Translations under genes and position numbers: made by a program | Notes under the pieces: generated by a model | Seen by the model: the letters and a program-made list of their open reading frames with translations, nothing else | Told to the model about the DNA's origin: nothing | Databases searched by the model: none | In this document: piece after piece, positions 10,738-56,646 of the stretch | Layout of the letters: the number at the start of each line of letters is the position of its first letter | How positions within the stretch are numbered: the first letter of the stretch is position 1 | DNA from: an uncultured Gammaproteobacteria bacterium | GTDB taxonomy: Bacteria > Pseudomonadota > Gammaproteobacteria > UBA6429 > Thiohalophilaceae | Length of the DNA stretch: 64,000 bases | Reading direction: 5' to 3' | Assembly (NCBI GenBank): GCA_913064945.1 | Contig: CAJYAN010000003.1 | Coordinates: forward strand, 62,001-126,000

Positions 10738-10836
10738 CCTGTACTGCCAAAGGCAACCACGGCTGAAAAGCGATGGACGCAAAGTTATCGATCTAAGGAA
10801 CTCTGGTTCTATGATAGCGGGACCGCCAATAACAGG
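10738..10836 (+). promoter_or_regulatory. c-di-GMP-I (GEMM-I) riboswitch
   Basis: Conserved GEMM-I elements occur in order: AGGCAACC at 10751; a helix CCACGGCT/AGCGATGG closed by a GAAA tetraloop; GGACGCAAAG at 10775-10784; a short hairpin and CTAAGG; a GGAAC/GTTCT hairpin; then ATAGCGGGACC at 10814-10824. CCTGT (10738-10742) and ACAGG (10832-10836) can close the outer stem. It lies 107 nt before a gene for a receiver-PilZ protein, so the second messenger probably controls expression of its own effector. The direction of control cannot be decided from sequence. Confidence 0.85.
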
Positions 10837-43100: not shown

Positions 43101-43762
43101 ATAGCATTCCCCTGTCCATCGCCAAAAATCTGCACTTCGATATGCCGCGCATGTTCAATAAATTTTTCGAGGAAAACGCCGTTGTTAGAAAAATTACTTT
43201 CGCTCAGGCGGCGTACTGAATCGAAGGCCTTGTTTAATTCCTCGTCGCTACGACACAGTTGCATGCCGATGCCACCACCGCCAGCGGTGCTCTTGAGCAT
43301 CACCGGATAACCAATACTGTTAGCCGTAATGGTGGCCTCGTTAATGTCGTTTAACAAATCGCTACCGGGTAATAACGGCATCTGATTTTCCCGTGCCAGT
43401 ATGCGCGCCGTGTGTTTTAAACCGAAGGCACGCATCTGTGCTGGTGTCGGACCAATAAAGGCAAGACCCGCGGCCTCGCAACGCCTGACAAAATCCGGAT
43501 TCTCACTCAGAAACCCATAACCGGGATGAATCGCCTCAGCGCCACAACGCTGAGCAATCTCCAGCAGTTTATCCTGGTTCAAATAGGTATCGCTGGCGCG
43601 ACCACTACCCAGCGAAAAGGCTTCGTCCGCCTGGCTAACATGCAACGAGTCGATATCGGCCTCGGCATAGACCGCCACGGCAGAGACGCCCAGTTGCTTG
43701 AGGGTACGAATAATACGAGTGGCGATAGCGCCACGGTTGGCAATCAAGACCTTGTTAAACAT
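40172..43762 (-). CDS. Biotin-dependent urea/guanidine carboxylase
   Basis: 1196 residues. A biotin carboxylase domain (about 1-450, MFNKVLIANRGAIATRII, KSTAGGGGIGM) is followed by a two-part carboxyltransferase of the AHS2/AHS1 type (SGGTMTTIQDYPGR; LGAPVATPMDPRHR) and a C-terminal biotinyl domain with Lys1160 in ESMKMEI. It carboxylates urea or guanidine using bicarbonate and ATP. Two DUF1989 genes in the operon and a guanidine-II riboswitch immediately upstream favour guanidine, giving carboxyguanidine. Direct assignment needs the selectivity residue of the carboxyltransferase site to be checked. Confidence 0.93.
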   Translation of the reverse strand: MFNKVLIANRGAIATRIIRTLKQLGVSAVAVYAEADIDSLHVSQADEAFSLGSGRASDTYLNQDKLLEIAQRCGAEAIHPGYGFLSENPDFVRRCEAAGLAFIGPTPAQMRAFGLKHTARILARENQMPLLPGSDLLNDINEATITANSIGYPVMLKSTAGGGGIGMQLCRSDEELNKAFDSVRRLSESNFSNNGVFLEKFIEHARHIEVQIFGDGQGNAIALGERDCSTQRRNQKVIEECPAPNIPHTIREQLHTTAVRLVQAVQYRNAGTVEFVYDQGEDQFYFLEVNTRLQVEHGVTEQVYGVDLVAWMLQLAAGDMSALPAVPDANGHAIQVRVYAEDPNKDFQPCAGLLNEVNFPQQDNLRIDHWIETGTEISPFFDPMLAKVIVTAQTRDQARQQLDEVLAQTRLYGIETNIAYVRAVLNTNEFLQGRIFTRYLNTFIYHPSTLDVISGGTMTTIQDYPGRVGYWHVGVPPSGPFDSYSFCLGNRLLENDATCAGLEITLNGPTLRFNSARQIVLAGAAMRVTLDEVSVPFWQVVTVNAGQVLHFGKVSAAGARSYLLVKDGFSCPNYLGAKSTFTLGQFGGHVGRALRAGDVLHLPAQTKALKPMAIAEAIQPAIEQTWTLRVIYGPHGAPDFFTPEDIETFFAATWEVHYNSSRTGIRLIGPKPKWARSDGGEAGMHPSNIHDNAYAIGTIDFTGDMPVILGPDGPSLGGFVCPATVIAADLWKLGQLKAGNKIRFDVVSIDDAVQIQHAQLQQIEQLSPVQHTYSNMHPTSPVLRVITESQHGVQVVYRPSGDNYLLVEYGPLMLDIALRFRVHALMLWLQEHMTVGMLELTPGIRSLQIHYDSQRLAVDTLLELLERAEYELQDIDELELPARVVHLPLSWDDEACQLAIDKYMQSVRKDAPWCPSNIEFIRRINGLTNIDEVKQTVFDASYLVMGLGDVYLGAPVATPMDPRHRLVTTKYNPARTWTAENSVGIGGSYMCVYGMEGPGGYQFVGRTLQMWNRYHHTQEFEQPWLLRFFDQIRFYEVSGDELLKIREDFPKGRYPLRIETTSFKLNDYQAFLHQHESSVSEFTTRREQAFAEELHRWVSSGQINFDSAQDIAHEAGEEEALPENCVAIESPVAGSVWQVMVNQGDRVQAGQALLILESMKMEIEVTAPHDGTVYAITRQEGNQVNAGQPLLVLQED

Positions 43763-43786: not shown

Positions 43787-43832
43787 GGCAGGCCGTCCTG
43801 CCATTGATGTGAAATCACACGGGTCGTCCCGT
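43787..43832 (-). promoter_or_regulatory. Guanidine-II (mini-ykkC) riboswitch
   Basis: On the minus strand two hairpins carry ACGR tetraloops: ACGGG-ACGA-CCCGT (43832-43819), then a 16-nt linker, then GGCAGG-ACGG-CCTGCC (43802-43787). Paired ACGR-loop hairpins are the defining structure of the mini-ykkC motif, which binds guanidine at each loop. It lies 25 nt before the carboxylase ATG, inside the operon. The element probably controls translation or readthrough into the carboxylase and allophanate hydrolase genes. Confidence 0.85.
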
Positions 43833-43851
43833 AGATATTTTCCAGCCAGCA

Positions 43852-44490
43852 TCAGTCCCAGATCAGAATTTCGATAGGCGTCGGGTTATAACCATTACAC
43901 GGGTTATTCAACTGTGGACAGTTGGAGATTAACACAATGACATCCATGGCCGCGCGCAGCTCGACGTATTTGCCCGGTGCAGAGATACCGTCAGCGAAAC
44001 TGAGACCACCGTCAGCGGTGATCGGCACATTCATGAAGAAGTTGATGTTGTGCGTGATGTCACGCTTGCTCATACCGAAATCTTCATTCTCTGCCACTGC
44101 CAGCATCCAGCTGTCGCGACAGGCGTGCATGCACTTCTTCTCCAGTGCATAGCGTACAGTATTGCTTTCGGTGGCGCAGGCACCGCCCAGGGTGTCATGC
44201 CGTCCACAGGTATCGGCGACGATCTCCAGTAGAACATTGCCTTCATTAGAGACGAGCTTACTACCGGCAGTAAGATAAACGTTGCCCTGTTCACGAATCG
44301 TATCCATAGCGCTATAGCGCTCGGCTGGGTCGTTAACATTATAAAACAGGGTGTCGGCAGCCTGATTGCCCTCCAGGTCAAGAATGCGAAAGGTCTGTCC
44401 GGCCTTAACCACCTTCATGAAATAGTCACCGGCGGGTACGATCTCACGGTACAGTGCCTGCTCGGCCTGTAACGAACTCTGCTTAATCAT
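43852..44490 (-). CDS. DUF1989 protein, carboxyguanidine deiminase subunit (CgdA/B-like)
   Basis: About 212 residues from the ATG at 44490 (MIKQSSLQ), which overlaps the end of the preceding gene by 8 nt. The DUF1989 (urea carboxylase-associated) fold shows [37 protein letters not shown] and [16 protein letters not shown], with conserved Cys/His as metal ligands. In characterised operons two such proteins form the heteromeric carboxyguanidine deiminase that yields allophanate. I cannot tell from sequence which subunit this is. Confidence 0.85.
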
Positions 44491-45226
44491 GCTGGCAGGC
44501 TCCATGCCCGAGATGATAGATGCGATTGTTTTCAAAGCCGCGGCGATTTTCATCACGCGCATTTAAACAGGCATCATCACTGTTCATGGCTGCGGCCTGG
44601 CGAATTTCGAAACGTATCGCCTTGCGTGGATACTCGCTAGCGGGATTCAATGGATGCGGACAGGTATGTAACAACACAAGGGTATCCATCTCGAAACGCA
44701 ACTCGACGTAATCCCCGGCCTGGCTATTATCTGCGACATATTGCAGATCGCCGTCATCGTTGACTTCGACCTTGCTGAAGAAATTGACGTTGGCGGCCAT
44801 ATCACGTTTGCCCAATCCATACTTGGCCAGTTCTACCAGGAAACTATTATAACCATTCTGTTGCCAGTCGTTACGATATTCCTGATAACGACGCTCGCCC
44901 CATTTTTGGGCCACGATGGCTTTAGTCGAATTACCACACACGGTCTCGTGCCAGCCCACGCTATCTTCGACGATGGAACAGAAAATTCGCCCCATATCGG
45001 AATATAGACAATTCCCCTGGGTGAGTTTGAAAGTGTGCTGGCATTTTAAGGTATCCGGAGCGTTATAACGCTCTAGTATATTTTCCGGATTATAAAATAA
45101 CATACCAACATTGGCACCACCTTCAATATCGATGAGCCGCAGACTTGTGCCGCGGCACATGTGCAAAGACCAGTGGCAGGCGGCAGCAAGTTCATCGGCA
45201 TACAGAATGTTGTTTTGTTCGCTCAT
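44483..45226 (-). CDS. DUF1989 protein, carboxyguanidine deiminase subunit (CgdA/B-like)
   Basis: 247 residues, second DUF1989 protein of the operon: [40 protein letters not shown] and [14 protein letters not shown] align with the neighbouring gene product. Its ATG overlaps the stop of the NikR-like gene (ATGA). It is presumed to partner the next gene product as carboxyguanidine deiminase; older annotation calls it urea carboxylase-associated protein. Confidence 0.85.
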
Positions 45227-45687
45227 TTGTTTTTACTCTGTGTTGGCAAAGGATGTAATGGCGGCATAATCGCCGCCGACATCAGCAACTGTCCAGTGTG
45301 TACCCCCCGGCAACTCGTCATACTATCCGCGATCATCTTTAACTTCTTTGCGGGACCCTGAACCAGTATAACTGCCAGGGTTTGTGTATCTACCAGGTTG
45401 ACATTTAGTGAGCTGATCACTTCATTTATATTGTCATGTTGAATATCAGCCAGCATCTTTTGTAGTCCACGAACCGAGTGATTATAGACCAAGTTAATAG
45501 TCCCAACCATAATGGAATCATCAAACTTTGTTTTATGTTCCGCAACCTGGCGATTGATCATCTCCGAGATCGCTTGTGATCTACTCTCAAAACCGCAATC
45601 GCTTACCAAATTATCAAATTCTTGCAGAACATTTTCCTGCAAAGAAATACTGATTCTGCTGACATTTTGTTTAACTTGCACATCCAT
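45223..45687 (-). CDS. NikR-like ribbon-helix-helix regulator without nickel ligands
   Basis: About 154 residues from ATG 45687 (MDVQVKQNVSRISISL). The N-terminal ribbon-helix-helix DNA-binding part (NVSRISISLQENVLQEF ... SRSQAISEMI) is followed by a C-terminal ACT-like sensor aligning with NikR (GTINLVYNHSVRGLQ). Of the four E. coli nickel ligands only His76 is kept (IQHD); positions 87, 89 and 95 are Asn, Asn and Thr (LNVNLVDTQT). It should therefore sense something other than nickel, or with other affinity. It sits between the ABC ATPase and the DUF1989 genes and likely binds the dyads at 48580-48607 and 52386-52413. Confidence 0.82.
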   Translation of the reverse strand: MDVQVKQNVSRISISLQENVLQEFDNLVSDCGFESRSQAISEMINRQVAEHKTKFDDSIMVGTINLVYNHSVRGLQKMLADIQHDNINEVISSLNVNLVDTQTLAVILVQGPAKKLKMIADSMTSCRGVHTGQLLMSAAIMPPLHPLPTQSKNK

Positions 45688-45688
45688 A

Positions 45689-46597
45689 TCAAAAGACACT
45701 CGAAACATCATCCGTCACAGGCACCATACGCACCAAGTTCATGTGATCGTCGCTTACCTCTTCTTCCGGTGGATGGATTAAGTCTTCCAGACGTTTCTTT
45801 GTCGCCAGAAACTCCGGGCTCAACATCTGATCGGGAGAGCGTGGTTGCGGCACGGGAACCTCAATCACTTCCTGGACTTCGCCAGGATGTGCCTTTAACA
45901 CCAATATTCTGTCTGCCAGGTAAATCGCTTCGTCCAGGTCATGGGTAATAAACAAAATAGTAATATCAATATTCTGCCAGATACCCATTAAATAAGATTG
46001 CATCTTGGCGCGGGTTTGCGCATCCAGTGCCCCGAACGGTTCATCCATTAACAGTATTCTGGGTTGATTGGCCAGGGCTCTGGCAATCGCCACACGCTGT
46101 TTCATGCCACCTGAAAGCTGATGCGGATAGCTATCTTCGAATTTGCTTAAGCCAACTAGGTCAATCCATTGACGTGCCTCTTCTTCGGAGGAAAACTTAC
46201 CCTGCCCCCTCGCCTCAAGACCAAACATGACATTGCGCTTTACGGTAAGCCAGGGAAATAACGTATAGCCCTGAAAGACCATCCCACGATCGGGACCAGG
46301 TTCACTCACATCTTTGCCATCGAGCAATACTTTGCCGGATGTTTTATTCTCTAGTCCAGCCAGAATACGAATCAAGGTGGACTTACCACAGCCGGAAGGA
46401 CCGATCACGCAAACGAATTCACGACGATGCACCTCAAAGTTAATATTCTTCAGTGCAGTAACATGACCTTGCCGCGATTCAAAGTCCTTATGCAAGCCGT
46501 CGATTTCCAAAATCACAGGGCGCGCCTTTAGACGTTGAAAACGGTCTTTGACATCCTCGGTTTGCTCAAGATAGCTTGGTAATTCAATTTTTGTCAT
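45689..46597 (-). CDS. NitT/TauT-type ABC transporter ATPase
   Basis: About 302 residues from ATG 46597, which overlaps the permease stop (ATGA). Walker A is GPSGCGKST, the signature LSGGMKQR, Walker [15 protein letters not shown] and the H-loop ITHDLDEA. It energises the co-encoded permease; substrate in this context is most likely guanidine or a related nitrogen compound. The longer frame to 46645 overlaps the permease and has no support. Confidence 0.92.
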
Positions 46598-47565
46598 GAC
46601 TTCGCCATTTCTCTTTCCCACGGAAACAGGCGCCGCCCTAACCATGCGAGGATAATATCGATACTTAGACCGAGAATCCCAATCATCATAATGGCGGCAT
46701 AAACATTATCAAAATTCTTGTAGCGTGCCTGTTGTGTAATAAACCAGGTAATACCAGAACTCGCCCCGATCAACTCGGCGACAATCAAATACGTCCAGGC
46801 CCAGCCAAGTAAGACACGCAGGTCCTTGTATAGGTTGGTAATAATTCCAGGAACCACCACCCTGAATAATAGTGTTGTCCGTTTAGCGCCTAGCGTTAGT
46901 GCTGCTTCCAGCAGGGATGGATCCAGCTTGCGTGTCGTATTGGACACAATCAGGACCTGTTGGAAAAAAGTACCAATAAAAATGATTGCAATTTTGGGTG
47001 CTGAATAGATGCCCAGAATCGCTACCGCCAAGGCACCGAAGGCAGGCGCTGGCAAATAGCGGAAAAATTCGACAAAAGGTTCAAATAGTTTCGAGAAGAA
47101 ATCATAGGTCCCACACAGTATCCCTAGAGGAACGCCAACCAGCGAGGAAATCAGAAACCCCCAAAAGATGACCTGTATGCTGTCCCACAAGCTTTCATGT
47201 AACCACTTTTCGCTGCGCAGCTTAGGCTCGGTTGTAAAGGCTGTATAAAATGCAATAGCAACTTGATGTGGTGCTGGCAAATAGACCGGGTTGGCGCGGA
47301 TGCCCTCTGGTTGTGGTTTGCCTTGCTTTACGGTATTTTGTAACTCACTTTCAAAAACGTCACGGTCTACCAACATACCCTTGGTAAAATATTCGACACT
47401 ACCTGGATTAGTCACTTCCATTTTAGGGTGCCAGATGAAGGGGACATAACTAACCAGGCTCCAGACAAGCAATGGCAACAAAAAACTGAATATCATTACT
47501 AGTAAGCGTGTTTTTGGTTTCAACTCGCGTCGCACTGAAAACAGTTGTGAAATTGCCATGCTCAT
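46594..47565 (-). CDS. NitT/TauT-type ABC transporter permease
   Basis: 323 residues with an N-terminal span, a periplasmic insert of about 90 residues ([15 protein letters not shown] ... YLPAPHQVA), then five or more spans. The EAA loop ([21 protein letters not shown]) contacts the ATPase. It lies 21 nt after the binding-protein gene. Confidence 0.9.
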
Positions 47566-47586: not shown

Positions 47587-48564
47587 TTACATGCCCAACG
47601 TCAGGGAGAAGTCAATGTAAGAACTGACGTCTTCCGGCTTTTTGTATACTTTGTTAGCGACATTAAAATCATCAGAAATTTTTGTTGAACCGGTGACTGA
47701 CTTAAAGCCCTTGACCTTAGTCATGTACTTTTTCGCCTCTTCCAGCTTGAGTATCTTGGTGCCCAAGACAAACTTTTTGTACTCCGCTGGTTTAAGCCCG
47801 ACACGCGAGGCCATAATCTTGATGGCATCTTCACGAGTTTTAGGGTCATAAAAGTAGTCAACGGCACGGTACCAAACTTTCAGAAACTTCTTGAGATCAT
47901 CCTTACGCTTCGCGTATACCTTCGGTGAAGCCGCATAGACGTCATAGATCAGACCCGGCTCATCGGCACTGGTATAAATAGGCTTAGAGCCTGGTACCTG
48001 CTGCAGGGCAATCCCAGAACTTGGCTGCCATGCGGCGATGGCATCCACCTGGCCAGAGGCCAGCACCTGGGGCGTTTCGTTGGTCGGGACATTGACGAGT
48101 GTAACGTCAGATTCCTTTAAACCATTTTTCTTAAGTGCGTTCAATACCAGCAAGTGATCGACAAAACCAATCTCAACACCTATTTTCTTGCCTTTTAAGT
48201 CCTTGATAGAATTAATGCCAGGTTTGGCAACAATCATATCGTTGCCGTTACTGTAATCATTCAACAGGAACATAATGCCTTTGGCACCCGTTGAGCCCGT
48301 TACCAGCGTATCGCCGTTCGTCATACCGACAATATCAATTTTGCCGGCAGCGAAGGCATCCATCGAGGCAACATAATCGAACCACTCAAATTTGACATCC
48401 AGGCCTTCTTGCTTAAACCACTGCTTTTGAATTGCCACTTCCCACAAGACCCAGCCTGGCCAGTCACTGTAGCCAACACGTAACGGTTCGGATGCATGAG
48501 CCGAGGCACTAAATAACATGGCCGCGGCGATTACACCCATCACTTTTCTCATCATAGAATGCAT
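47587..48564 (-). CDS. NitT/TauT-type ABC transporter substrate-binding protein
   Basis: 325 residues with a signal peptide cleaved near SAHASEPLRVGY. The fold is that of nitrate/taurine-type binding proteins (LRVGYSDWPGWVLWEVAIQKQWFK; DAIAAWQPSSGIALQQVPG). It is the first gene of the operon for guanidine degradation and the probable determinant of uptake specificity. Start may be 48564 or the ATG at 48555. A sigma-54 promoter and a dyad operator lie upstream. Confidence 0.9.
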   Translation of the reverse strand: MHSMMRKVMGVIAAAMLFSASAHASEPLRVGYSDWPGWVLWEVAIQKQWFKQEGLDVKFEWFDYVASMDAFAAGKIDIVGMTNGDTLVTGSTGAKGIMFLLNDYSNGNDMIVAKPGINSIKDLKGKKIGVEIGFVDHLLVLNALKKNGLKESDVTLVNVPTNETPQVLASGQVDAIAAWQPSSGIALQQVPGSKPIYTSADEPGLIYDVYAASPKVYAKRKDDLKKFLKVWYRAVDYFYDPKTREDAIKIMASRVGLKPAEYKKFVLGTKILKLEEAKKYMTKVKGFKSVTGSTKISDDFNVANKVYKKPEDVSSYIDFSLTLGM

Positions 48565-48579
48565 ATCGATACCCCTGTA

Positions 48580-48607
48580 GTAATACGAAATAAACTTTTC
48601 GTAATAC
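48580..48607 (-). promoter_or_regulatory. Dyad operator at the guanidine operon promoter
   Basis: GTAATACGA-N10-TCGTAATAC on the plus strand, 8 of 9 positions symmetric. It spans the predicted sigma-54 transcription start (about 48602), 16 nt before the first ATG, a position suited to repression. The right half-site is identical to that at 52405-52413. The obvious candidate ligand is the operon-encoded NikR-like protein, whose family binds long-spaced dyads. Confidence 0.75.
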
Positions 48608-48612
48608 TGGAT

Positions 48613-48629
48613 AGCAACCTATATGCCAG
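48613..48629 (-). promoter_or_regulatory. Sigma-54 promoter of the guanidine operon
   Basis: Minus strand TGGC (48628-48625), 7 nt, TTGC (48617-48614) followed by T: fits the consensus TGGCAC-N5-TTGCW with correct -24/-12 spacing. It implies RpoN control, presumably by NtrC under nitrogen limitation; an NtrC site was not identified. Confidence 0.78.
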
Positions 48630-48814
48630 TAGCAACCCGTCTCACATTCATCATAAAAAACAATTAGTTATAACCACCGACTATTATGTAATGCTTTAAA
48701 AACGCACCAGACAAGTGCGACAGACACAGAATGTATTTAAATTCGTGCATTTTTGAGCATCACAACTGAGTAATTGAATTGCTTTGCCAGGCGCCACTTG
48801 TTATTTTCGTTGTT

Positions 48815-49663
48815 ATGAAACTTACATTATTTAAAACACTGTGGGGCTTTACTGGCAGTTATCAAAGTGCCATCCAGCAAGCACAAACCGCTGATATGTA
48901 TGGTATCGAAGCCCCTGCGCCTGAAAAATCAAAAGGCCGACTTGAGCTTAAGCTACTACTCGAAAATCATGGCATGAATTATATTGCCGAGATAACAACG
49001 GCAGGGAGTTATGTGCCTGATCGACATGCAACACTACAGCAGCATCTCGATTCGTTTGAATTAAAACTTGAAGCAAGCCTTGATTTAGATCCGTTGTTCA
49101 TTACCTGTCTTGGTGGTTGTGATGCCTGGCCGGAATCACAGAGTATCGAGTTTTTTCAGCGGGCGATTGAAATGGCCCAGCATTATAATACTACGGTTAG
49201 CTTTGAAACGCATCGTGGCCGCTCACTGTTCAGTCCCTGGGTTACGCAACGCATTGTCAATCAGATACCGGAAATAAAACTTACTTGTGATTTTAGTCAC
49301 TGGTGTGTAGTCTGTGAGCGATTAATCGATACCGAGATCGATATTATTAAACTTATTGCAAAAAACGCCCATCATATACATGCCCGTGTCGGTTACGACC
49401 AGGGCCCCCAGGTACCCAACCCCGCTGCTCCGGAATATGCTACAGCACTTCAGGCCCATCAACGCTGGTGGGAAATTATCTGGGAGTCACAACAACGACG
49501 TGAATATCAGGTAACGACCATGACTCCGGAGTTCGGCCCGGATGGCTACCTGCATGAGGCGCCTTTTACGAGAAAGCCTGTTGCTGATCTCTGGGAGTTA
49601 AATACCTGGATGGCGAATCAGGAAACAGAACATTTTAACAGTTATGTACGTGACTTAGACTAA
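48815..49663 (+). CDS. Sugar-phosphate isomerase/epimerase-like TIM-barrel protein
   Basis: 282 residues from ATG 48815 (MKLTLFKTLWGF), preferred over a longer frame from 48779. It has the xylose isomerase-like AP endonuclease 2 barrel pattern with metal ligands in SFETHRG (Glu), LTCDFSHW (Asp/His), HHIHARV (His) and TPEFGPDGY (Glu). Reaction unknown. It is transcribed away from the guanidine operon and its stop overlaps by 4 nt that of the convergent EamA gene. The two operons flanking it share a promoter design. Confidence 0.78.
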   Translation: MKLTLFKTLWGFTGSYQSAIQQAQTADMYGIEAPAPEKSKGRLELKLLLENHGMNYIAEITTAGSYVPDRHATLQQHLDSFELKLEASLDLDPLFITCLGGCDAWPESQSIEFFQRAIEMAQHYNTTVSFETHRGRSLFSPWVTQRIVNQIPEIKLTCDFSHWCVVCERLIDTEIDIIKLIAKNAHHIHARVGYDQGPQVPNPAAPEYATALQAHQRWWEIIWESQQRREYQVTTMTPEFGPDGYLHEAPFTRKPVADLWELNTWMANQETEHFNSYVRDLD

Positions 49664-50556
49664 CTCTCGCCTGTCATCTTCAATGCTGGTTCGGCTGCCA
49701 CTGTGGGTTCACGCCAGCCTTCGACAATAGCAGCAATTAAAACGAGAAGGCCACCGAAACATTCACTCATCGATAGACTCATATCGGTAAGCAGTGCAAC
49801 AGAGGTAACAGCCACCACCAGTTCCATGACAATAATCAGAGCACCACGTGCCGCTTCGAGTTGAGTCACCCCCCACTGGGTACCAAAGGTAATCAGGGAC
49901 AACATCACCACGCCATACAAGACGGCATATAAAGGAGAATTATTCCTCGGCAGGTCTACTGCGGCGGAATTGAACAACAGAAATATACCCATCATTACCG
50001 CGCAACTAATAAACATTGCACTTACCTTGCTGGCAATTGGTTGGCTGGCAGTCTTCCGAAACAGGATATTATTGAAAGCAAATGCCATACCTGAGCCAAT
50101 CGCTGTCAGATCAATCCAGCCCAGTCCCTGAAACGTGTTACTGTCAACGCCCAGGATCAGAATGGCACCTACTAATGACATAATGACAGCCACAATTCGG
50201 ACCCGGTCAGGCTTTTCCTTGAGCAGATACCATCCACCTAGAACACTCCAGGCAGGTAATAAGTAAAACAAAATCATGACGCGGACCACATCACCATGAT
50301 AGAGCGCGGTTTGAAACAATAGATTGGCAATACCGCCAAACAATGCAATCAGTAACAGGTACTTTAGATTACCTTTCCAGGCATGGCGTTGAGTATATAG
50401 AAATGGGCTCAAGAGTAGCCCGGCACTGGCAAAGGCTATCAAGATCAGGTGAATGCCATCCAGTCCCATTTGGTTCATCAACTTGATAGGAAACCAGGTG
50501 AGTCCCCAGCCAATTGAACTCAAAAACAACACACCAATCGCCAGCCCATGCTTCAT
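49660..50556 (-). CDS. EamA/DMT family transporter
   Basis: 298 residues, about ten membrane helices in two EamA halves (SIGWGLTWFPIKLMNQ; second half starting GSGMAFAFNNILF). Drug/metabolite transporters of this type exchange or export small organic compounds; the substrate is not readable. It is the last gene of the desaturase-MBL-EamA operon. Small multidrug transporters that export guanidinium belong to the same superfamily, but this is a different, two-repeat protein. Confidence 0.86.
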   Translation of the reverse strand: MKHGLAIGVLFLSSIGWGLTWFPIKLMNQMGLDGIHLILIAFASAGLLLSPFLYTQRHAWKGNLKYLLLIALFGGIANLLFQTALYHGDVVRVMILFYLLPAWSVLGGWYLLKEKPDRVRIVAVIMSLVGAILILGVDSNTFQGLGWIDLTAIGSGMAFAFNNILFRKTASQPIASKVSAMFISCAVMMGIFLLFNSAAVDLPRNNSPLYAVLYGVVMLSLITFGTQWGVTQLEAARGALIIVMELVVAVTSVALLTDMSLSMSECFGGLLVLIAAIVEGWREPTVAAEPALKMTGES

Positions 50557-50573
50557 GTCATGTCCCTGCTTGA

Positions 50574-51359
50574 TTAATCATAAAAGCCGGGAAACGGCTC
50601 ACATGCAGGAAAAAATGACATATCATGATTCGGCCAGAGTCGCGCGTCTGTCTCGGCGGCAATGGCTTTTAGTTTACGAATACTCTCTAGTGCCAGTTCC
50701 TCGCTATTATGCCAGCACAGGCCAGGAGCGATTTCCTGTTCAATGTTTTCCTGTAAATCCGCCGCATCGCCCGCCAGTAATATCGGTTTACCTTTCGGTA
50801 ATTCGATCAACATCGACATATGACCAGCGGTATGTCCCGGGGTTTCGATAGCACGCACACCCGGCACCAGATCATACTCCTGGTCCTGGAAGCGCCAGCG
50901 ATAATCACCGACAAAATCGTTAATGAAATAGGCGCCATCCTCGGGGACCCTGGCCGCCTCGTATTCCTTCTTATGTACATGCACTTCGGCATGTGCCATA
51001 TCACAAATACCTCCGCCGTGGTCAAAATGCAAATGCCCAATAAAGACCGTATCCACGTCCACCGGTTGCAAACCAAGTTGCCGCAGGCGGTTTTCCAGTT
51101 TCTGTTCTTCATCCATTTGTGGCGGACCAAACGGGAATTCCTCGTTATCATAATACTGTTTGCGTAGCGTCGGGTTATTGATCTTTTCATAGTCACAACC
51201 CACGTCGTACAAAATTCTGCCGTTCCTCGTCTCCATCAAATAGGCCAGGATGGGGGCTTCAATAATCTGGCCATGACCATGATTTCGGGTCGACAGGGTC
51301 TTCTCATACTTGTGAGTCCCCGTCAGTATTGGCCAGAATTTTTTTACCTGTGCCATCAC
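50574..51359 (-). CDS. MBL-fold hydrolase, AHL-lactonase-like
   Basis: 261 residues. Zinc motif HLHFDHGGG near residue 109, then GHTAGHMS and LLAGDAADL, matching N-acyl-homoserine lactonase-type hydrolases; a late LWPNHDMSFF carries another His. Sequence alone does not tell lactonase, esterase or amidase activity. It lies 7 nt after the desaturase-like gene and 17 nt before the EamA gene, so the three should work on one compound. Confidence 0.8.
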   Translation of the reverse strand: MMAQVKKFWPILTGTHKYEKTLSTRNHGHGQIIEAPILAYLMETRNGRILYDVGCDYEKINNPTLRKQYYDNEEFPFGPPQMDEEQKLENRLRQLGLQPVDVDTVFIGHLHFDHGGGICDMAHAEVHVHKKEYEAARVPEDGAYFINDFVGDYRWRFQDQEYDLVPGVRAIETPGHTAGHMSMLIELPKGKPILLAGDAADLQENIEQEIAPGLCWHNSEELALESIRKLKAIAAETDARLWPNHDMSFFPACEPFPGFYD

Positions 51360-51366
51360 AATCCCT

Positions 51367-52365
51367 TTAATGTGCCGTTAGAAATGAGACGCCATCCACA
51401 CCAATAAAGCGACGGCCTTTTTCCAGGTCTGCAAGATCGCCTTCATCAGCATTTAACATACGTGGTACCCGGTACTGGTGATATGACTTGATTAAATTGA
51501 CGAATGGAAACATCTGTCTTGTATCACAGGCGAAAAGTTCATGATGTAGTGTTGGCAGCTTATACCAGGGCATGGTCGGTTTCTCATGATGTGCATTGTG
51601 ATAGCCAAAATTCAGCACCAACAGGTTTAACCACGGATGGCGCATTGAAATCATGTTAGAGAAAGTGTTTCGCACCTCATATTCATGATCAAAATGTTTT
51701 CCCTCATCCCCTCGGGGTTGATCCAGCGTTTCAAAGATTTCATAGGTATGTTGATGGACGTCCATATAACGCATGATAGTCAAGAACAGCATATAGGCAA
51801 CAGCATAGAACATCATCGCGGCAGGTTGATAAGAAAAGATTATCGCAAAGACTGTGCCGCGAGTTAGTAGCACTCTGATCACCAAAGCACGTTTATGCCG
51901 ACGGTTTGCTAACGTAAATGGCAGGATAATGACTAGTACGTGCATCATGATCTCAATTGCGGGGATATAACACCACTCCAGCGCTTTCATTACCTTTACC
52001 AGTCGGGGGTATTGTGCCAGCCTCGGCCGATAATCAAACGCCACCACGTCAGCTTTATCAACATGATGTCGAAAATGTTTATGCCGTATTTCCTCGTAGG
52101 TGCCATAGCAGGCTCCGGTGAACCACATCAACACACGGCCTAGATTGGCATTCCATTTGTTATTGGCGAAAATGGTATTGTGTGCGCATTCATGAATCAT
52201 GTAGGCCGCAAAGATCATGCTATGCGCCAGCAACACAACACCGAGCGGATACCACATACTTTGACCCACCATTAGCAGCCACCAGCCAGTGAAATATCCC
52301 GTCAGGATATAGCCCAGTGCCAGCAGGTTTGGCCAGAAACCATCCTGATATCTCATAACTTTCAT
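51367..52365 (-). CDS. Membrane fatty-acid-desaturase-like diiron enzyme
   Basis: 332 residues with four or more hydrophobic segments and three histidine boxes: HECAH (58-62), HKHFRHH (95-101) and HNAHH (about 254). The family uses O2 and a diiron centre to desaturate or hydroxylate lipids, carotenoids, alkanes and smaller compounds. The context (MBL hydrolase, transporter, promoter shared with a guanidine operon) suggests a nitrogen-containing substrate rather than a membrane lipid; that is inference. Confidence 0.82.
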   Translation of the reverse strand: MKVMRYQDGFWPNLLALGYILTGYFTGWWLLMVGQSMWYPLGVVLLAHSMIFAAYMIHECAHNTIFANNKWNANLGRVLMWFTGACYGTYEEIRHKHFRHHVDKADVVAFDYRPRLAQYPRLVKVMKALEWCYIPAIEIMMHVLVIILPFTLANRRHKRALVIRVLLTRGTVFAIIFSYQPAAMMFYAVAYMLFLTIMRYMDVHQHTYEIFETLDQPRGDEGKHFDHEYEVRNTFSNMISMRHPWLNLLVLNFGYHNAHHEKPTMPWYKLPTLHHELFACDTRQMFPFVNLIKSYHQYRVPRMLNADEGDLADLEKGRRFIGVDGVSFLTAH

Positions 52366-52385
52366 ACTAGGACTACTTACCTGTA

Positions 52386-52413
52386 ATATTATGATACTGT
52401 GATTTCGTAATAC
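52386..52413 (-). promoter_or_regulatory. Dyad operator at the desaturase operon promoter
   Basis: ATATTATGA-N10-TCGTAATAC on the plus strand. The right half is identical to, and the spacing the same as, the operator at 48580-48607; the left half matches it at 6 of 9 positions. It sits 20 nt before the desaturase ATG, over the predicted transcription start. Confidence 0.65.
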
Positions 52414-52415
52414 TT

Positions 52416-52432
52416 AGCAAAGCATGTACCAT
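52416..52432 (-). promoter_or_regulatory. Sigma-54 promoter of the desaturase operon
   Basis: Minus strand TGGT (52431-52428), ACATGCT, TTGC (52420-52417), then T. Only one base differs from TGGCAC-N5-TTGCW and the spacing is exact. Geometry relative to the dyad is almost the same as in the guanidine operon. Confidence 0.7.
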
Positions 52433-52493
52433 ACCGTTATTCATATAAGATATTGATTTATATTGATAAATTATATTATGGCGAAAATAGAAT

Positions 52494-52552
52494 GCACCAT
52501 ATTTGCACATGGATGTGCTAATACGATTATATCTGTGCATTGATATATGGTG
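52494..52552. repeat. Nested inverted repeats
   Basis: An outer pair CACCATAT (52495-52502) and ATATGGTG (52545-52552) encloses the palindrome GCACAT-GG-ATGTGC (52505-52518). This looks like a protein-binding region or a cruciform, possibly a control site for the PhnD-like/kinase genes. Confidence 0.45.
52525..52544 (+). repeat. Near-identical 20-nt repeat, copy 1
   Basis: GATTATATCTGTGCATTGAT matches the copy at 52822-52841 at 17 of 20 positions, 297 nt apart. Confidence 0.45.
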
Positions 52553-52821: not shown

Positions 52822-52841
52822 GATTATATCCGTGCACTCAT
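52822..52841 (+). repeat. Near-identical 20-nt repeat, copy 2
   Basis: GATTATATCCGTGCACTCAT spans the GTG start of the PhnD-like gene, so binding here would block transcription or translation of the sensor genes. Confidence 0.45.
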
Positions 52842-53776
52842 TAACCAAGCCATGCTCCGCCCTGTTAACGCCAGTTGGTAAGTTTCTGGCCTGTACGCTA
52901 TTGTCTGTAGCGTTCTACACCGCGGGCCCTGGCTCCCTTTGGGCAAGTGAAACAATACGTCCTGCGCCTGAACAAATTTCAGGAACAGTGGTTGCAACCC
53001 CGCAGGCAGTCTCCACGCAGACAGAACACCCGCGACCTTATCTCCGCTTCGGTATACTGCCATTACAGAGTCCGACCAAACTGGCCGCCATGTTTATACC
53101 CATTACTGAGTATCTGCAACAGGTGCTGAAAACCTCGGTGCAGTTTGTGACGGCACCCAATTTTAGTCGTTACATGGCGCGCGTTAAACAACGGGATTAC
53201 GATATTATCTATTTGAATCCGCTCACTTACACCGAGGCGCGCAAGGCCGGTTATCGCGTCATCGTGAAAGTCGCACAGGAGCCCTTCACAGGCATACTCG
53301 TGGTACGTAAAAATGGCCCTATTAAGGACCTTGACCCGCATCACCTCGCCAGCGGAATGCGTCTTGGCTTTCCCGATCCCAATGCCTTTGCCGCCACGGT
53401 CATGACCCGACAGTACATGGAGGACCATGGCATTAATGTCGACCATCAATTTCATGTCCACTATTTTGGTTCTCAGGATTCTGCACTAATGGCACTGTAT
53501 TCCGGACTCGTCGATATCATCGGCACCTGGCGGCCATCGCTGCGGTCGATGCCCGCGAACGTACGCAAGGATCTGCATATCATTGCTGAGACACCACCCC
53601 AGCCCCAGATGCCGATTGCCGTTAAGGCCAACATGCCGGAACAGGAGGTCCAGCGCATCACCCACTGTCTGCTGACCCTCACCCATACTGAGCAGGGACG
53701 CAAGGCACTGACCGCGCTAGGATTCAAAAACGGATTTGTCCGTGCCGATGATACTGAATATCTTGGAGTACACTAA
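52832..53776 (+). CDS. PhnD-like periplasmic binding protein, putative sensor input
   Basis: 314 residues, GTG start, long signal peptide (cleavage near SLWASE). The mature part matches the PhnD/phosphonate-type binding fold (LRFGILPLQSPTKLAAMFIPITEYLQ; DYDIIYLNPLTYTEARKAGY; RLGFPDPNAFAATVM). No transporter genes are linked; instead a sensor kinase and a response regulator follow. It probably presents an oxyanion or sulfur compound to the kinase. The start is uncertain because no good ribosome binding site precedes it. Confidence 0.82.
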   Translation: MHSLTKPCSALLTPVGKFLACTLLSVAFYTAGPGSLWASETIRPAPEQISGTVVATPQAVSTQTEHPRPYLRFGILPLQSPTKLAAMFIPITEYLQQVLKTSVQFVTAPNFSRYMARVKQRDYDIIYLNPLTYTEARKAGYRVIVKVAQEPFTGILVVRKNGPIKDLDPHHLASGMRLGFPDPNAFAATVMTRQYMEDHGINVDHQFHVHYFGSQDSALMALYSGLVDIIGTWRPSLRSMPANVRKDLHIIAETPPQPQMPIAVKANMPEQEVQRITHCLLTLTHTEQGRKALTALGFKNGFVRADDTEYLGVH

Positions 53777-53777
53777 C

Positions 53778-55268
53778 ATGAGCAGCATTGCAGATAATGT
53801 CGCTGAAGCGGATACCGAGCATCCACTTCTGGATACAAACGATACGAAGTTTAACGGCAAAGATAATGAATTGCGCTGGTATGCCACCCTACGCTTTCGC
53901 CTGATCATTTCGGTTGCCCTGGTACACGCGATCCTCATGGGGGCCTTTATCTGGGATGCCGTCACCGAACAATCAAACAGCATTCGTGCCGAACTCCAAA
54001 ACCGTGGTCATGCACTCTCAAGCCTGATGGCCGTTGCCACCACCAACGCCCTGCTTGCCGAAGACCTCGCCTCATTAGCTGAGGTCATTACCCGAATCCG
54101 AAATCAACCCGATGTGGCATACGGCGAGGTACTCGATGCACAGGGTAATATTCTTGCCAGTACCGATGCCACACGTGTCGGTCAGCGTATTGTGCCACAG
54201 ATCATGGTCAGTGATAAAATGCCGCTCAGTGCCAACGATCACGTGCTGGACCTTCGCGAACATATCCATGTTGCCGGTCGTGACGTCGGTAGCGTCTTTC
54301 TTGGTTTATCGACAGATAATCTGGACAAGGCGCTCGCGGCCACTCGCAATGAAGGCCTGTTATTCATTCTATTCGCGCTCGTGATTGGTAGTCTTGCTGC
54401 CGGTGCACTGTCTTTCGCTACCACACGCAACCTGCATGCCATGACCATGGCGGTCCGCCGACTCACCAGTGGCGACCTCAATGTACGCGTAACGGCCAAA
54501 GGCCATGATGAAGTGGGCCTGCTGGCGCGTGCCTTTAATACCATGGTCGCTTCCTTACAACGCTCTTCTCGCCAGGTAAAAATGGAACATGAGAAACGCA
54601 CCGAGGCCGAGCGTCTCGCCTGCGTCGGTGAATTGTCGGCCAGCATTGCCCATGAAATTCGTAACCCGCTATCCGCCATTATCAACTCGGTCAACCTGCT
54701 GGCTCGCGGTGACCTGCAGGCTGATGATCAAAAGCAGGTAACCCATATTGTGAATGCGGAGTCCGAACGACTACAACGCATCCTCAACGACTTTTTGACG
54801 TTTTCACGAATACCACACTCCGATATGCAAACCATCGAACTATGTCATTTGATACGTGATACCGTTATTCTGCTATCCAATGACCCGGAACTGCCCGATA
54901 ATGTCAAAGTCGAAACCCATTTGCCTGCGACGAGCTGCATGGGGCGAATGGATAAGGACCAGATCCGCCAGGTCCTGATGAATCTTATTATGAATGGCGT
55001 GCAGGCGATGCCGGATGGGGGCACATTGAGCATTGAAGTCGTATCGGAAAGCGATAAGTTGTCCGTTCGCATCATCGATGATGGTATTGGCATTCCAGAC
55101 TCTCTGGTTGAGAAAGTCATACGACCTTTCGTCACCGGGCGCAAAAATGGTACCGGCCTCGGGCTTTCAATTGTACAGCGCATTTTAATGCAACATGGCA
55201 CAAAACTGGATATTGTGAGCCACCCTGATACAGGAACGGAAATGAGTTTCTCATTGCAAGCCGCATAA
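53778..55268 (+). CDS. Sensor histidine kinase
   Basis: About 496 residues from ATG 53778, one base after the PhnD-like stop. An N-terminal cytoplasmic stretch, membrane span about 40-60, periplasmic domain of about 130 residues, second span about 190-212, HAMP, HisKA with His in ASIAHEIRNPL and HATPase motifs (NLIMNGVQAMPDGG; DDGIGIPD; GTGLGLSIV). It should relay the PhnD-like protein signal to the NtrC-type regulator encoded 10 nt downstream. Confidence 0.92.
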   Translation: MSSIADNVAEADTEHPLLDTNDTKFNGKDNELRWYATLRFRLIISVALVHAILMGAFIWDAVTEQSNSIRAELQNRGHALSSLMAVATTNALLAEDLASLAEVITRIRNQPDVAYGEVLDAQGNILASTDATRVGQRIVPQIMVSDKMPLSANDHVLDLREHIHVAGRDVGSVFLGLSTDNLDKALAATRNEGLLFILFALVIGSLAAGALSFATTRNLHAMTMAVRRLTSGDLNVRVTAKGHDEVGLLARAFNTMVASLQRSSRQVKMEHEKRTEAERLACVGELSASIAHEIRNPLSAIINSVNLLARGDLQADDQKQVTHIVNAESERLQRILNDFLTFSRIPHSDMQTIELCHLIRDTVILLSNDPELPDNVKVETHLPATSCMGRMDKDQIRQVLMNLIMNGVQAMPDGGTLSIEVVSESDKLSVRIIDDGIGIPDSLVEKVIRPFVTGRKNGTGLGLSIVQRILMQHGTKLDIVSHPDTGTEMSFSLQAA

Positions 55269-55278
55269 AGTAAATACG

Positions 55279-56646
55279 ATGTCTACCATATTAATCGTCG
55301 ATGATGAATTTTCCATTCGCAAGACCCTGGGGATCCTGCTCAAGTCCGAAGGTTACCGGGCCCTGGAAGCCGCCAATCTTGAGCAGGCAAAACGATTGCT
55401 ACAGAGTGAGTCCGTTGACCTGCTTATGACGGATCTCAGATTGGGCCAGGAAAATGGTATGGACCTGCTCAGTTGGTTAAATGCCAACGGACGCGAGGTG
55501 GAGAGCGTCATCATGACCGCCTACGGCTCCATCGAAAATGCCGTCACCGCCATGAAACTCGGTGCCTATGATTATCTCACCAAACCCATTAATCCCGATG
55601 AGTTGCTGTTGCGCGTCAACAAGGTGCTGGAAAAAAAATCCCTGCGCGATGAGGTGACCCGTCTGCGTGAACGTCTCGAAGGCCGCGAGCAACTCCAGGG
55701 GATCGTTGCCCAGAGCAAGCCCATGCGGCATATTTTACAAATCATTGAGCGTATCAATACACAGGATATCCCGGTACTCATTACAGGTGAAACCGGTGTC
55801 GGCAAAGAGGTCATTGCACAGGCCATCCACAATACCAGTGCGCGTGCAAAAGGCCCCTTTGTACCGATAAACTGCTGTACCCTACCCGAAGAGCTGCTGG
55901 ACTCGGAGTTGTTCGGTCATGTTAAGGGGGCCTTCACCGGCGCGACATCAAATAAAGCCGGACTCTTCCGCGAAGCCAATGGAGGCACACTCTTTCTCGA
56001 TGAAATCGGCGATATCGGCGCCAGACTCCAGGTCAAGTTGCTACGCGTCCTCCAGGAAGGCGAGGTCCGCCCCGTGGGTGGCGGCAGTTCAATCAAGGTG
56101 GATGTACGTGTCCTCGCCGCGACCAATAGTCACCTGGAGGCTGCCGTCGAAGAAGGACGATTCCGCAGTGACCTGCTGTTTCGGCTCAATGTCTTACCAA
56201 TTACGATTCCACCGCTACGTGAACGACGAGAGGATATTGCCCCGCTGGTAGAGCATTTTCTCAAAACATTACGCAAGCGCTTGGATAATCCTGAGCTCAA
56301 CATCACAGCCGATGCCCGGCGTAAACTCATGTTGTATGACTGGCCGGGAAATGTCCGCCAGCTGGAAAATATTCTCGAACGCAGCTTCGCCCTGTATCCA
56401 GGGCCAAGGCTCGATGCCGATGAAATTGCCATCAACATGCCACTCAACAAATCAATCGCCAGCACGGCTAACGGAAACGCCGCCGCGGCCAGTGAAGATA
56501 ACCCAGACCTGTCACTGCAGGACATTGAGAATCGCCATATTCAGCGAGTCCTCGCCGCCTGTGAAAATAATCAGGTTGCGGCGGCCCGGGTGCTCGGTAT
56601 TAGTCGCTCGACACTCAGGCGCAAGCTCGAACAAATGGAGCCCTGA
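55279..56646 (+). CDS. NtrC-family sigma-54 response regulator
   Basis: 455 residues. The receiver domain (1-120) has DD at the start and phospho-Asp in LLMTDLRLG. The AAA+ domain has Walker A GETGVGKE, the sigma-54 contact loop GAFTGAT and the DEIGD segment. The C-terminal Fis-type helix-turn-helix reads AARVLGISRSTLRRKLEQM. Its likely target is the sigma-54 promoter 150 nt downstream that drives the YeeE-TusA-rhodanese operon. Confidence 0.94.
   Translation: MSTILIVDDEFSIRKTLGILLKSEGYRALEAANLEQAKRLLQSESVDLLMTDLRLGQENGMDLLSWLNANGREVESVIMTAYGSIENAVTAMKLGAYDYLTKPINPDELLLRVNKVLEKKSLRDEVTRLRERLEGREQLQGIVAQSKPMRHILQIIERINTQDIPVLITGETGVGKEVIAQAIHNTSARAKGPFVPINCCTLPEELLDSELFGHVKGAFTGATSNKAGLFREANGGTLFLDEIGDIGARLQVKLLRVLQEGEVRPVGGGSSIKVDVRVLAATNSHLEAAVEEGRFRSDLLFRLNVLPITIPPLRERREDIAPLVEHFLKTLRKRLDNPELNITADARRKLMLYDWPGNVRQLENILERSFALYPGPRLDADEIAINMPLNKSIASTANGNAAAASEDNPDLSLQDIENRHIQRVLAACENNQVAAARVLGISRSTLRRKLEQMEP

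Follow-up and report, generated by a model that had tools for sequence, protein, structure and literature searches.

The DNA analysed here (the window) is a stretch of 64,000 nucleotides from the 3.2-Mb genome of an uncultured gammaproteobacterium, and it contains two operons of interest, both on the minus strand. The guanidine operon starts with the genes of an ABC transporter, namely the substrate-binding protein (47587-48564, with the ATG at 48564), the permease (46594-47565) and the ATPase (45689-46645). These are followed by a NikR-like ribbon-helix-helix (RHH) regulator (45223-45711) and by two DUF1989 proteins, UAAP1 (44483-45226; TIGR03425), which we take to be a carboxyguanidine deiminase subunit, and UAAP2 (43852-44562; TIGR03424). 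A guanidine-II riboswitch (43788-43835; RF01068, 33 bits, gathering score 32) lies within the operon before the urea/guanidine carboxylase (40172-43762; TIGR02712), and the allophanate hydrolase follows (38373-40169; TIGR02713, 778 bits, cut-off 511). Judged by homology, the components expected of a guanidine carboxylase operon are all present, namely the carboxylase, UAAP1/2, the allophanate hydrolase and a guanidine riboswitch; the substrate preferred by the carboxylase may be urea or guanidine.

The desaturase operon includes a membrane protein of the fatty-acid-desaturase family (51367-52365, with the ATG at 52365; PF00487), which is presumably a diiron enzyme, an MBL-fold lactonase-like hydrolase (50574-51359) and an EamA-family transporter (49660-50556). 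Between the two operons, a xylose-isomerase-like TIM-barrel protein is encoded on the plus strand (48812-49663; PF01261, 31.3 bits, cut-off 31.1); its gene also adjoins the desaturase genes in several relatives. The desaturase matched the arginine hydroxylase GntB model weakly (27.7 bits, cut-off 380) and no solved structure up to E 1, and the low quality of its AlphaFold model (mean pLDDT 41.4) precluded a comparison of folds. The isomerase-like protein gave one structural match, to an unrelated-looking entry (E 0.64). Searches for the desaturase yielded no pattern match in viral contigs and one distant match in plasmids. A guanidine aptamer was found in the desaturase leader of 7 of 13 loci elsewhere (guanidine-II in four, guanidine-I in three), which ties the desaturase/lactonase-like operon to guanidine metabolism. 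The desaturase leader of the window had no Rfam match at the gathering score.

Each operon is preceded by a composite site, made up of a sigma-54 -24/-12 element and, after a gap of 5 or 2 nt, a 28-bp dyad, at the positions given in an earlier note on this DNA. Both -24/-12 elements contain the GG and GC. The element of the guanidine operon, TGGCATATAGGTTGCT (48628-48613, minus strand), has one mismatch to TGGCACN5TTGCW and is kept in a related locus, L005; that of the desaturase operon, TGGTACATGCTTTGCT (52431-52416, minus strand), also has one mismatch, and its L005 counterpart is TGGTACATCGTTTGCT. The dyads, which are putative operators of the NikR-like protein, are GTATTACGAAAAGTTTATTTCGTATTAC in the guanidine leader (48607-48580, minus strand) and GTATTACGAAATCACAGTATCATAATAT in the desaturase leader (52413-52386, minus strand). 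Numbered with the C of the -12 element as -12, they span about -5 to +23 and about -8 to +20, respectively; the predicted transcript starts lie near 48602 and 52405 (minus strand). The earlier note had described the dyad as two halves with N10 spacing. Its right half, the 9-mer TCGTAATAC (plus strand), is indeed identical at both sites; in the desaturase dyad, the opposite half has two mismatches to that pattern. The 9-mer-N10 arrangement did not hold as the conserved unit, and the core derived from the relatives is a 7-mer, GTAWTAC-N14-GTAWTAC.

The composite occurred twice in the window and never in 200 dinucleotide shuffles, under limits chosen after the sites had been seen (at most one mismatch in the sigma-54 element and two in the dyad, 2-19 nt apart). 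This agrees with the previous estimate that chance recurrence of the layout 3.8 kb apart is unlikely. For the dyad pattern with up to three mismatches, a mean of 0.01 matches was expected in the window and four were found, which are the two near-palindromic sites counted on both strands. The genome-wide search that had been suggested, with GTATTACGA-N10-TCGTAATAC, returned these two sites alone in the 3.2-Mb genome when up to two mismatches were allowed; with up to three allowed, it returned four sites and the reversed control motif two. The dyad alone, at up to one mismatch, was no commoner in the genome than its reversed control (7 vs 8), and the -24/-12 consensus alone did not significantly exceed chance in the window (48 matches vs 40.2 expected at up to two mismatches; 13 of 100 shuffles reached the count). 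The strict composite pattern matched one of 398 genomes of the phylum, which was the source genome itself; since the list held no other genome known to bear the NikR-like gene, this search measures background only. Perfect dyads were also seen in G381 contig 3, G404 contig 163 and G397 contig 24:28120, and the 3-kb stretches around the first two held no recognised guanidine-related gene.

Sixteen of the examined loci combine a NikR-like gene with an orthologous transporter whose leader could be read; the dyad was present in all 16, and a sigma-54 element lay just upstream of it in 15. Of 274 genomes sampled from the class, nine had the orthologous transporter, and eight of these had both a NikR-like match and the dyad; the ninth (G119) had neither, and carried a guanidine-I aptamer instead. 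Across Gamma- and Alphaproteobacteria as well as Verrucomicrobia, the presence of the dyad follows that of the NikR-like gene. The dyad stands before the regulator gene in two Verrucomicrobia, both without a sigma-54 element, and in three plasmid loci, of which one has such an element. At locus L063 the dyad has two mismatches and no sigma-54 element. Around other NikR homologues (L022-L040, n = 19), one locus had a nearby site within two mismatches. In an Acinetobacter plasmid locus (L120), the NikR-like gene has a gene annotated as a 2OG-Fe(II) oxygenase at a distance of about 4 kb. The dyad of the desaturase operon was found in the window and L005 alone among the loci examined, and was absent from the desaturase leaders of L061, L066, L073, L081 and L083. 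Phylogenetic footprinting, as proposed in the earlier note, thus upheld the dyad of the guanidine operon, and found that of the desaturase operon in a single relative.

The E. coli NikR operator is an inverted repeat of 28 bp, GTATGA-N16-TCATAC (excerpt of PMC7055735). The putative GTAWTAC-N14-GTAWTAC operator is an inverted repeat of the same length, with different arm sequences. That the NikR-like protein binds the dyad is a prediction, and the dyad might be bound by a different protein or act as an RNA or DNA hairpin. This alternative is highly improbable, as the dyad tracks the NikR-like gene, adjoins it in further groups and has the length of a NikR operator. The RNA hairpin was put aside because the expected start falls inside the dyad; a sigma-54-type start would leave part of the first arm out of the transcript, so that the arms could not pair fully. 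The earlier proposal that the NikR-like protein represses both operons therefore draws computational support from the tracking and the operator length, and it is less secure for the desaturase operon, whose dyad recurs in one relative only. Searches of one open-licence library, judged by titles and abstract starts, turned up no paper on control of these operons by a repressor, of the NikR/CopG type or otherwise.

The regulator belongs to the NikR family by homology of its RHH and NikR_C parts (PF08753, 1.8e-22); NikR of Pyrococcus horikoshii (2bj1) matched over both parts (E 3.6e-29). One NikR model scored above its cut-off (NF003381, 119 bits, cut-off 105), and two scored below (TIGR02793 nikR, 73 against 175; NF002815, 82.4 against 83). 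The nickel ligands His76/His87/His89/Cys95 correspond to H/N/N/T in the window protein. It falls in a separate clade of NikR-like proteins (support 0.994), in which the full HHHC set occurs in 0/20 proteins, vs 19/19 of the others; Cys95 is missing in all 20, and His87 or His89 in many. At the potassium site, the window protein has Q/E in place of the pair E30/D34. Its NikR_C domain has been retained and is conserved. A monomer model was also built (pLDDT 69.3, pTM 0.50), on which no conclusion rests. Given the missing ligand set, the protein was filed as a NikR-fold homologue rather than a nickel-responsive NikR; a nickel response is unlikely by its sequence, and nickel sensing was dropped as the first choice with the loss of the ligands. 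It is conceivable that the same regulator and operator still answer nickel or another metal and tune guanidine use to metal supply. Family membership and the model above its cut-off speak for this reading, as do three relatives that retain three of the four ligands (HHHT in L055, L017 and L018), where metal binding might persist; moreover, a nickel-dependent guanidine hydrolase exists. However, the carboxylase pathway uses biotin and not nickel, and with the altered ligands and potassium-site pair metal sensing is improbable.

Both rpoN and ntrC are present in the genome, with a true NtrC (740 bits, cut-off 558.6). An exact GCAC-N7-GTGC was found upstream of the -24 element in 13/26 leaders, and eleven other spacings (range 2-13) in 0-2 of the 26 each. 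In a subset of 22 leaders the count was 13, vs a shuffle mean of 0.18 and a maximum of 2; L063, L073, L078 and L120, all within the 26, gave 0/4. This stricter count was chosen after the 17-bp score had found the site of the guanidine leader ordinary. That site, CGCACTTGTCTGGTGCG (48703-48719, minus strand), is an exact GCAC-N7-GTGC centred 83 bp upstream of the -24 element, a position shared with L005; it agrees with the 17-bp NtrC consensus TGCACCAnnnTGGTGCA (excerpt of PMC8743547) at 12/17, and 39/100 shuffles were as good. The desaturase leader has an NtrC-like site with one good half, the only exact arm, TGTGCAAATATGGTGCA (52493-52509, minus strand), 70 bp upstream of the -24 element, which agrees at 14/17 (0/100 shuffles as good); GCAC-N7-GTGC at up to one mismatch was not found there. 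The predicted nitrogen control through RpoN and NtrC is thus favoured by the encoded proteins and the recurring sites, with a single half site in the desaturase leader. The sigma-54 activator might instead be the response regulator next door (55279-56646), which has Sigma54_activat and HTH_8 domains and lies 3 kb from the desaturase promoter. This is quite improbable, since in L005 the desaturase operon is instead preceded by the gene of a BicA-like transporter, neither kinase nor regulator was found in that locus by tblastn, and NtrC-type sites recur in the leaders of other genomes.

Taken together, both operons probably form a guanidine-use regulon of AND type, in which NtrC/sigma-54 activation would be gated by a NikR-fold repressor that responds to guanidine or a similar molecule. 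When nitrogen is limiting, NtrC at sites some 70-85 bp upstream from the -24 element would activate the sigma-54 polymerase at -24/-12. The NikR-like protein would occupy GTAWTAC-N14-GTAWTAC, which spans the start site (from about -8/-5 to +20/+23), and would block transcription until released by its effector, which is probably guanidine or a guanidino compound and not nickel. With its gene inside the operon that it would repress, the regulator would also control itself. The downstream guanidine-II riboswitch would be a second guanidine check ahead of the carboxylase, and the probable role of the desaturase operon is to provide guanidine or a precursor of it through oxidation of a guanidino compound. 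The position of the regulator gene and the RNA sensor downstream would also suit an RHH autorepressor without effector, setting only the expression level, with specific induction from the riboswitch and NtrC; the operon, which already contains a guanidine-II riboswitch, does not strictly require another guanidine sensor. This reading is rather unlikely. The conserved NikR_C domain argues against it, and it would leave without a specific signal the desaturase leader of the window and the three plasmid loci, in whose searched stretches no guanidine aptamer reached the gathering score.

To our knowledge, a protein sensor of guanidine has so far not been found, and the guanidine-responsive NikR-fold repressor proposed here is a candidate for it. 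More broadly, but only tentatively, at somewhat less than even confidence, the NikR-like proteins of guanidine operons may constitute a repressor family responsive to guanidine or guanidino compounds, with the nickel site turned into a small-molecule site, an operator common to Alpha- and Gammaproteobacteria and Verrucomicrobia, and evolutionary exchange with guanidine riboswitches in the same leaders. The dyad and the riboswitch are not strict alternatives, as both occur in one leader of G127. If true, such a family would provide the first example of a protein that senses guanidine without being a transporter or an enzyme. A concrete protein family, its putative operator and target promoters are now named, and the desaturase/lactonase-like operon is connected to guanidine metabolism.

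Compared with NikR of E. coli and P. horikoshii, the window regulator is homologous over the RHH and NikR_C parts, and its putative operator is inverted and equally long; whereas its ligands (H/N/N/T) and the operator arms (GTAWTAC vs GTATGA) differ, and the putative targets serve guanidine use rather than nickel uptake. Guanidine-I and -II riboswitches occur within the same operons, and relatives have them in the orthologous leaders; however, the desaturase and transporter leaders of the window carry the putative protein operator, and the aptamer is found only before the carboxylase. The urea carboxylase of Burkholderia cenocepacia is NtrC-dependent (PMC5491218), and sigma-54 control was predicted for COG3665 genes, 59% of which are called urea carboxylase (PMC12316311). 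The window likewise has a sigma-54 element and a candidate NtrC-type site, to which it adds a dyad over the start site, a feature not mentioned in the excerpts of these two papers. Finally, as in the methylguanidine hydroxylase (MgdH) extension (excerpt of PMC12508155), oxidative feeder genes appear to be joined to a guanidine carboxylase regulon, and the annotated 2OG-Fe(II) oxygenase gene of L120 is a further parallel; in the window, however, this part would be played by a membrane desaturase-family protein and an MBL hydrolase instead.

The guanidine operon (minus strand, 48564 down to 38373) contains eight genes in the order of three ABC transporter genes, the NikR-like gene, UAAP1, UAAP2, the carboxylase and the allophanate hydrolase. 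A guanidine-II riboswitch (33 bits; gathering score 32) precedes the carboxylase; on this basis, and from published work, the putative substrate of the enzymes is guanidine rather than urea. The desaturase operon encodes a desaturase-family protein, a lactonase-related MBL hydrolase and an EamA transporter. Adjoining it, window 52832-56646 encodes a phosphonate-type binding protein, a sensor kinase and a sigma-54-dependent response regulator in succession, a row that was not found in the related locus L005. The window also has a c-di-GMP-I riboswitch at 10742-10830 (59.2 bits).

On the minus strand, the guanidine leader consists of TGGCATATAGGTTGCT, 5 nt, the dyad GTATTACGAAAAGTTTATTTCGTATTAC, and an ATG 16 positions past the dyad's final base; the desaturase leader consists of TGGTACATGCTTTGCT, 2 nt, the dyad GTATTACGAAATCACAGTATCATAATAT, and an ATG 21 positions past it. 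Both follow the layout described in the earlier note, i.e., sigma-54 element, dyad and ATG in that order. With the -12 element's C set at -12, the dyads would span about -5 to +23 (guanidine) and about -8 to +20 (desaturase). The dyad pattern of that note, expected 0.01 times in the window at up to three mismatches, was found solely at the two leader sites. In the own genome, the fixed motif with up to two mismatches likewise gave these two sites only; at up to three mismatches there were two sites beyond the leaders, and two in the reversed control. The -24/-12 consensus by itself was no commoner in the window than chance. The combination of sigma-54 element and dyad, searched with limits set after the sites had been seen, occurred twice in the window and never in 200 dinucleotide shuffles, and the view that its recurrence by chance is unlikely was borne out. 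The two-leader finding is real and conserved, beyond a promoter coincidence.

Homologues of the NikR-like protein came from three sources: nine loci on named contigs; a set of 274 class genomes, of which 27, own included, matched at E ≤1e-15; and a set of 40 order genomes, of which 6, own included, matched at E ≤1e-25. The best 8 of the 27 genomes (E ≤2.1e-24; G000, G163, G145, G084, G127, G213, G192 and G048) were taken as the guanidine-linked clade in the class sample, and the remaining 19 homologues (L022-L040) possess the nickel ligands. The dyad was found with up to two mismatches in 16 of 19 scanned leaders of transporter-type binding-protein genes. The other three (L078 of G119, L074 of G263 and L075 of G107) each have a guanidine-I aptamer upstream, and the binding-protein homologues in L074 and L075 are distant (27-29% identity). 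A sigma-54 element (≤2 mismatches) ends 4-19 nt ahead of the dyad in 15 of the 16, L063 being the exception; this check drew on 24 leaders chosen beforehand for having the dyad. One of the 16, L072 (G299), showed no NikR-like gene on its contig; with G048 in its place, all 16 NikR-like-bearing loci have the dyad and 15 the sigma-54 element, and among the counted loci the closely related L007-L010 are not independent. Outside the 16 are L006/L068, L011, L012 and L013, which offer no readable orthologous leader, and the plasmid loci L118-L120, which were found later. Transporter homologues (E ≤1e-90) are present in 9 of the 274 class genomes, eight of them with a NikR-like match and the dyad. 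The ninth, G119, has its guanidine-I aptamer within 450 bp upstream, no NikR-like match and no dyad at up to three mismatches within 450 bp; this contrast is a single genome.

The dyad also occurs beyond transporter leaders. In the Verrucomicrobia loci L011 and L012, a perfect dyad without a sigma-54 element lies ahead of the regulator gene. In three plasmid loci, examined out of 49 plasmid records matched, the regulator adjoins urea-carboxylase-type genes and has an upstream dyad with one (Novosphingobium), two (Asticcacaulis) or no mismatches (Acinetobacter); only the Acinetobacter dyad has a sigma-54 element, and the DNA fetched for these loci gave no guanidine aptamer at or above the gathering score. 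The Acinetobacter sp. NCu2D-2 plasmid (L120), typed as mobilizable, carries urea/guanidine carboxylase genes, the NikR-like gene, an SMR transporter and an annotated 2OG-Fe(II) oxygenase gene. In G192, a perfect dyad lies ahead of genes for a creatininase-family protein and a type III glutamine-synthetase-like protein, an arrangement recorded at L063:10664-12947; in L058 and L007, a similar gene pair is flanked by the transporter genes and the NikR-like gene. In L060 (6338-6537; L098:1501-1700), the carboxylase gene and a second binding-protein gene diverge from a shared region that has two dyads, and a guanidine-II aptamer ahead of the carboxylase.

Among 552 ORF leaders in 21 loci, 27 rows had up to one mismatch, some sites being counted from more than one ORF, and by inspection all were guanidine-locus sites. 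Near the 19 other NikR homologues, scanned for about 1.5 kb per side as contigs permitted, there was one site at up to two mismatches (L022). In the own genome, the dyad alone at up to one mismatch was no more frequent genome-wide than its reversed control (7 vs 8), and G398, G395, G404, G163, G192 and G048 likewise showed no such enrichment. Positions 2, 3, 5, 6, 7, 23, 24, 26 and 27 were invariant over 24 sites, partly circularly since these were hand-collected by likeness, and because of these nine positions the core was taken as GTAWTAC-N14-GTAWTAC.

The window NikR-like protein matches the NikR structure 2bj1 over most of its length (residues 18-146, E 3.6e-29). The nickel ligands of E. 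coli NikR are His76, His87, His89 and Cys95 in excerpts of PMC7055735; the window protein has H/N/N/T at these positions, read against the E. coli NikR sequence. The complete ligand set was found in 0/20 sequences of the window protein's clade versus 19/19 other fetched homologues, and the three plasmid regulators likewise lack it (AHFS, LHFS and QHQV). The 20 guanidine-linked proteins form a single clade (FastTree support 0.994; 41 sequences). The carboxylase operon, whole or partial, was present in the fetched DNA of 19 of them; that of the remaining member, L019/L062 (G213), shows transporter genes only. Gene neighbourhoods among the 19 nickel-ligand homologues were viewed for L079 only. 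The NikR_C domain is retained and conserved, which favours a ligand. Dyads and guanidine aptamers sit in equivalent leaders, and on that ground guanidine or a closely related compound is our best guess for this ligand.

Thirteen desaturase-homologue loci were compared (11 from 369 class genomes, L005, and L070/L081). Footprinting in relatives, as the earlier note had proposed, showed the dyad kept before orthologous transporters (16/16 loci); in the desaturase leader it was confined to the window and L005 (2/13). In L063 (1/13), the desaturase lies downstream of the transporter gene, inside a dyad-bearing transporter operon. A guanidine-II aptamer is located at the desaturase operon in four loci (L061, L078, L081 and L083), and a guanidine-I aptamer in three, directly in L073 and before an upstream binding-protein gene in L074 and L075. 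Neither dyad nor guanidine aptamer was found in L066 (contig cut), L076 and L077. Sigma-54-like elements also lie upstream of the desaturase operon in L061, L066, L081 and L083. Since dyads or guanidine aptamers accompany relatives' desaturase operons, the operon is very likely part of guanidine metabolism, as judged from sequence. In the window lineage, the proposed protein operator occupies the place of an RNA sensor in several relatives' desaturase leaders. Both devices occur within one genome in G381 and G127, and the G127 carboxylase leader holds dyad and guanidine-II element together; the two are therefore partners as well as alternatives.

Both RpoN (516 bits against a cut-off of 277) and NtrC (740 bits against 558.6) are encoded in the own genome. 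The first scan of 23 leaders with the 17-bp NtrC consensus TGCACCAnnnTGGTGCA (from excerpts of PMC8743547) was mixed: the desaturase leader matched 14/17, equalled by 0/100 shuffles, the guanidine leader 12/17, equalled by 39/100, and the others were matched by 1-75 of 100. A count of GCAC-N7-GTGC, devised after recurrent arms had been noticed, covered the stretch from 20 to 200 bp ahead of the -24 element. Of 22 leaders, 13 carried the motif exactly and 18 had it when one mismatch was allowed, compared with means of 0.18 and 3.2 (maxima 2 and 7) in 200 shuffles. With L063, L073, L078 and L120 added, it was exact in 13/26; other spacings (2 to 13, not 7) gave 0-2/26 each. In both the window and L005, the guanidine leader has the exact motif at an identical place, -83 from the -24 element.

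No description of a NikR-fold regulator with a lost nickel site, a proposed operator and interchange with guanidine riboswitches was found in searches of an open-licence library, and section 8 of a review names guanidine-binding transcription factors as a topic for future research (PMC12186494). The sigma-54/NtrC half is of a known kind, because a urea carboxylase gene of B. cenocepacia is listed as NtrC-dependent in expression in excerpts of PMC5491218.
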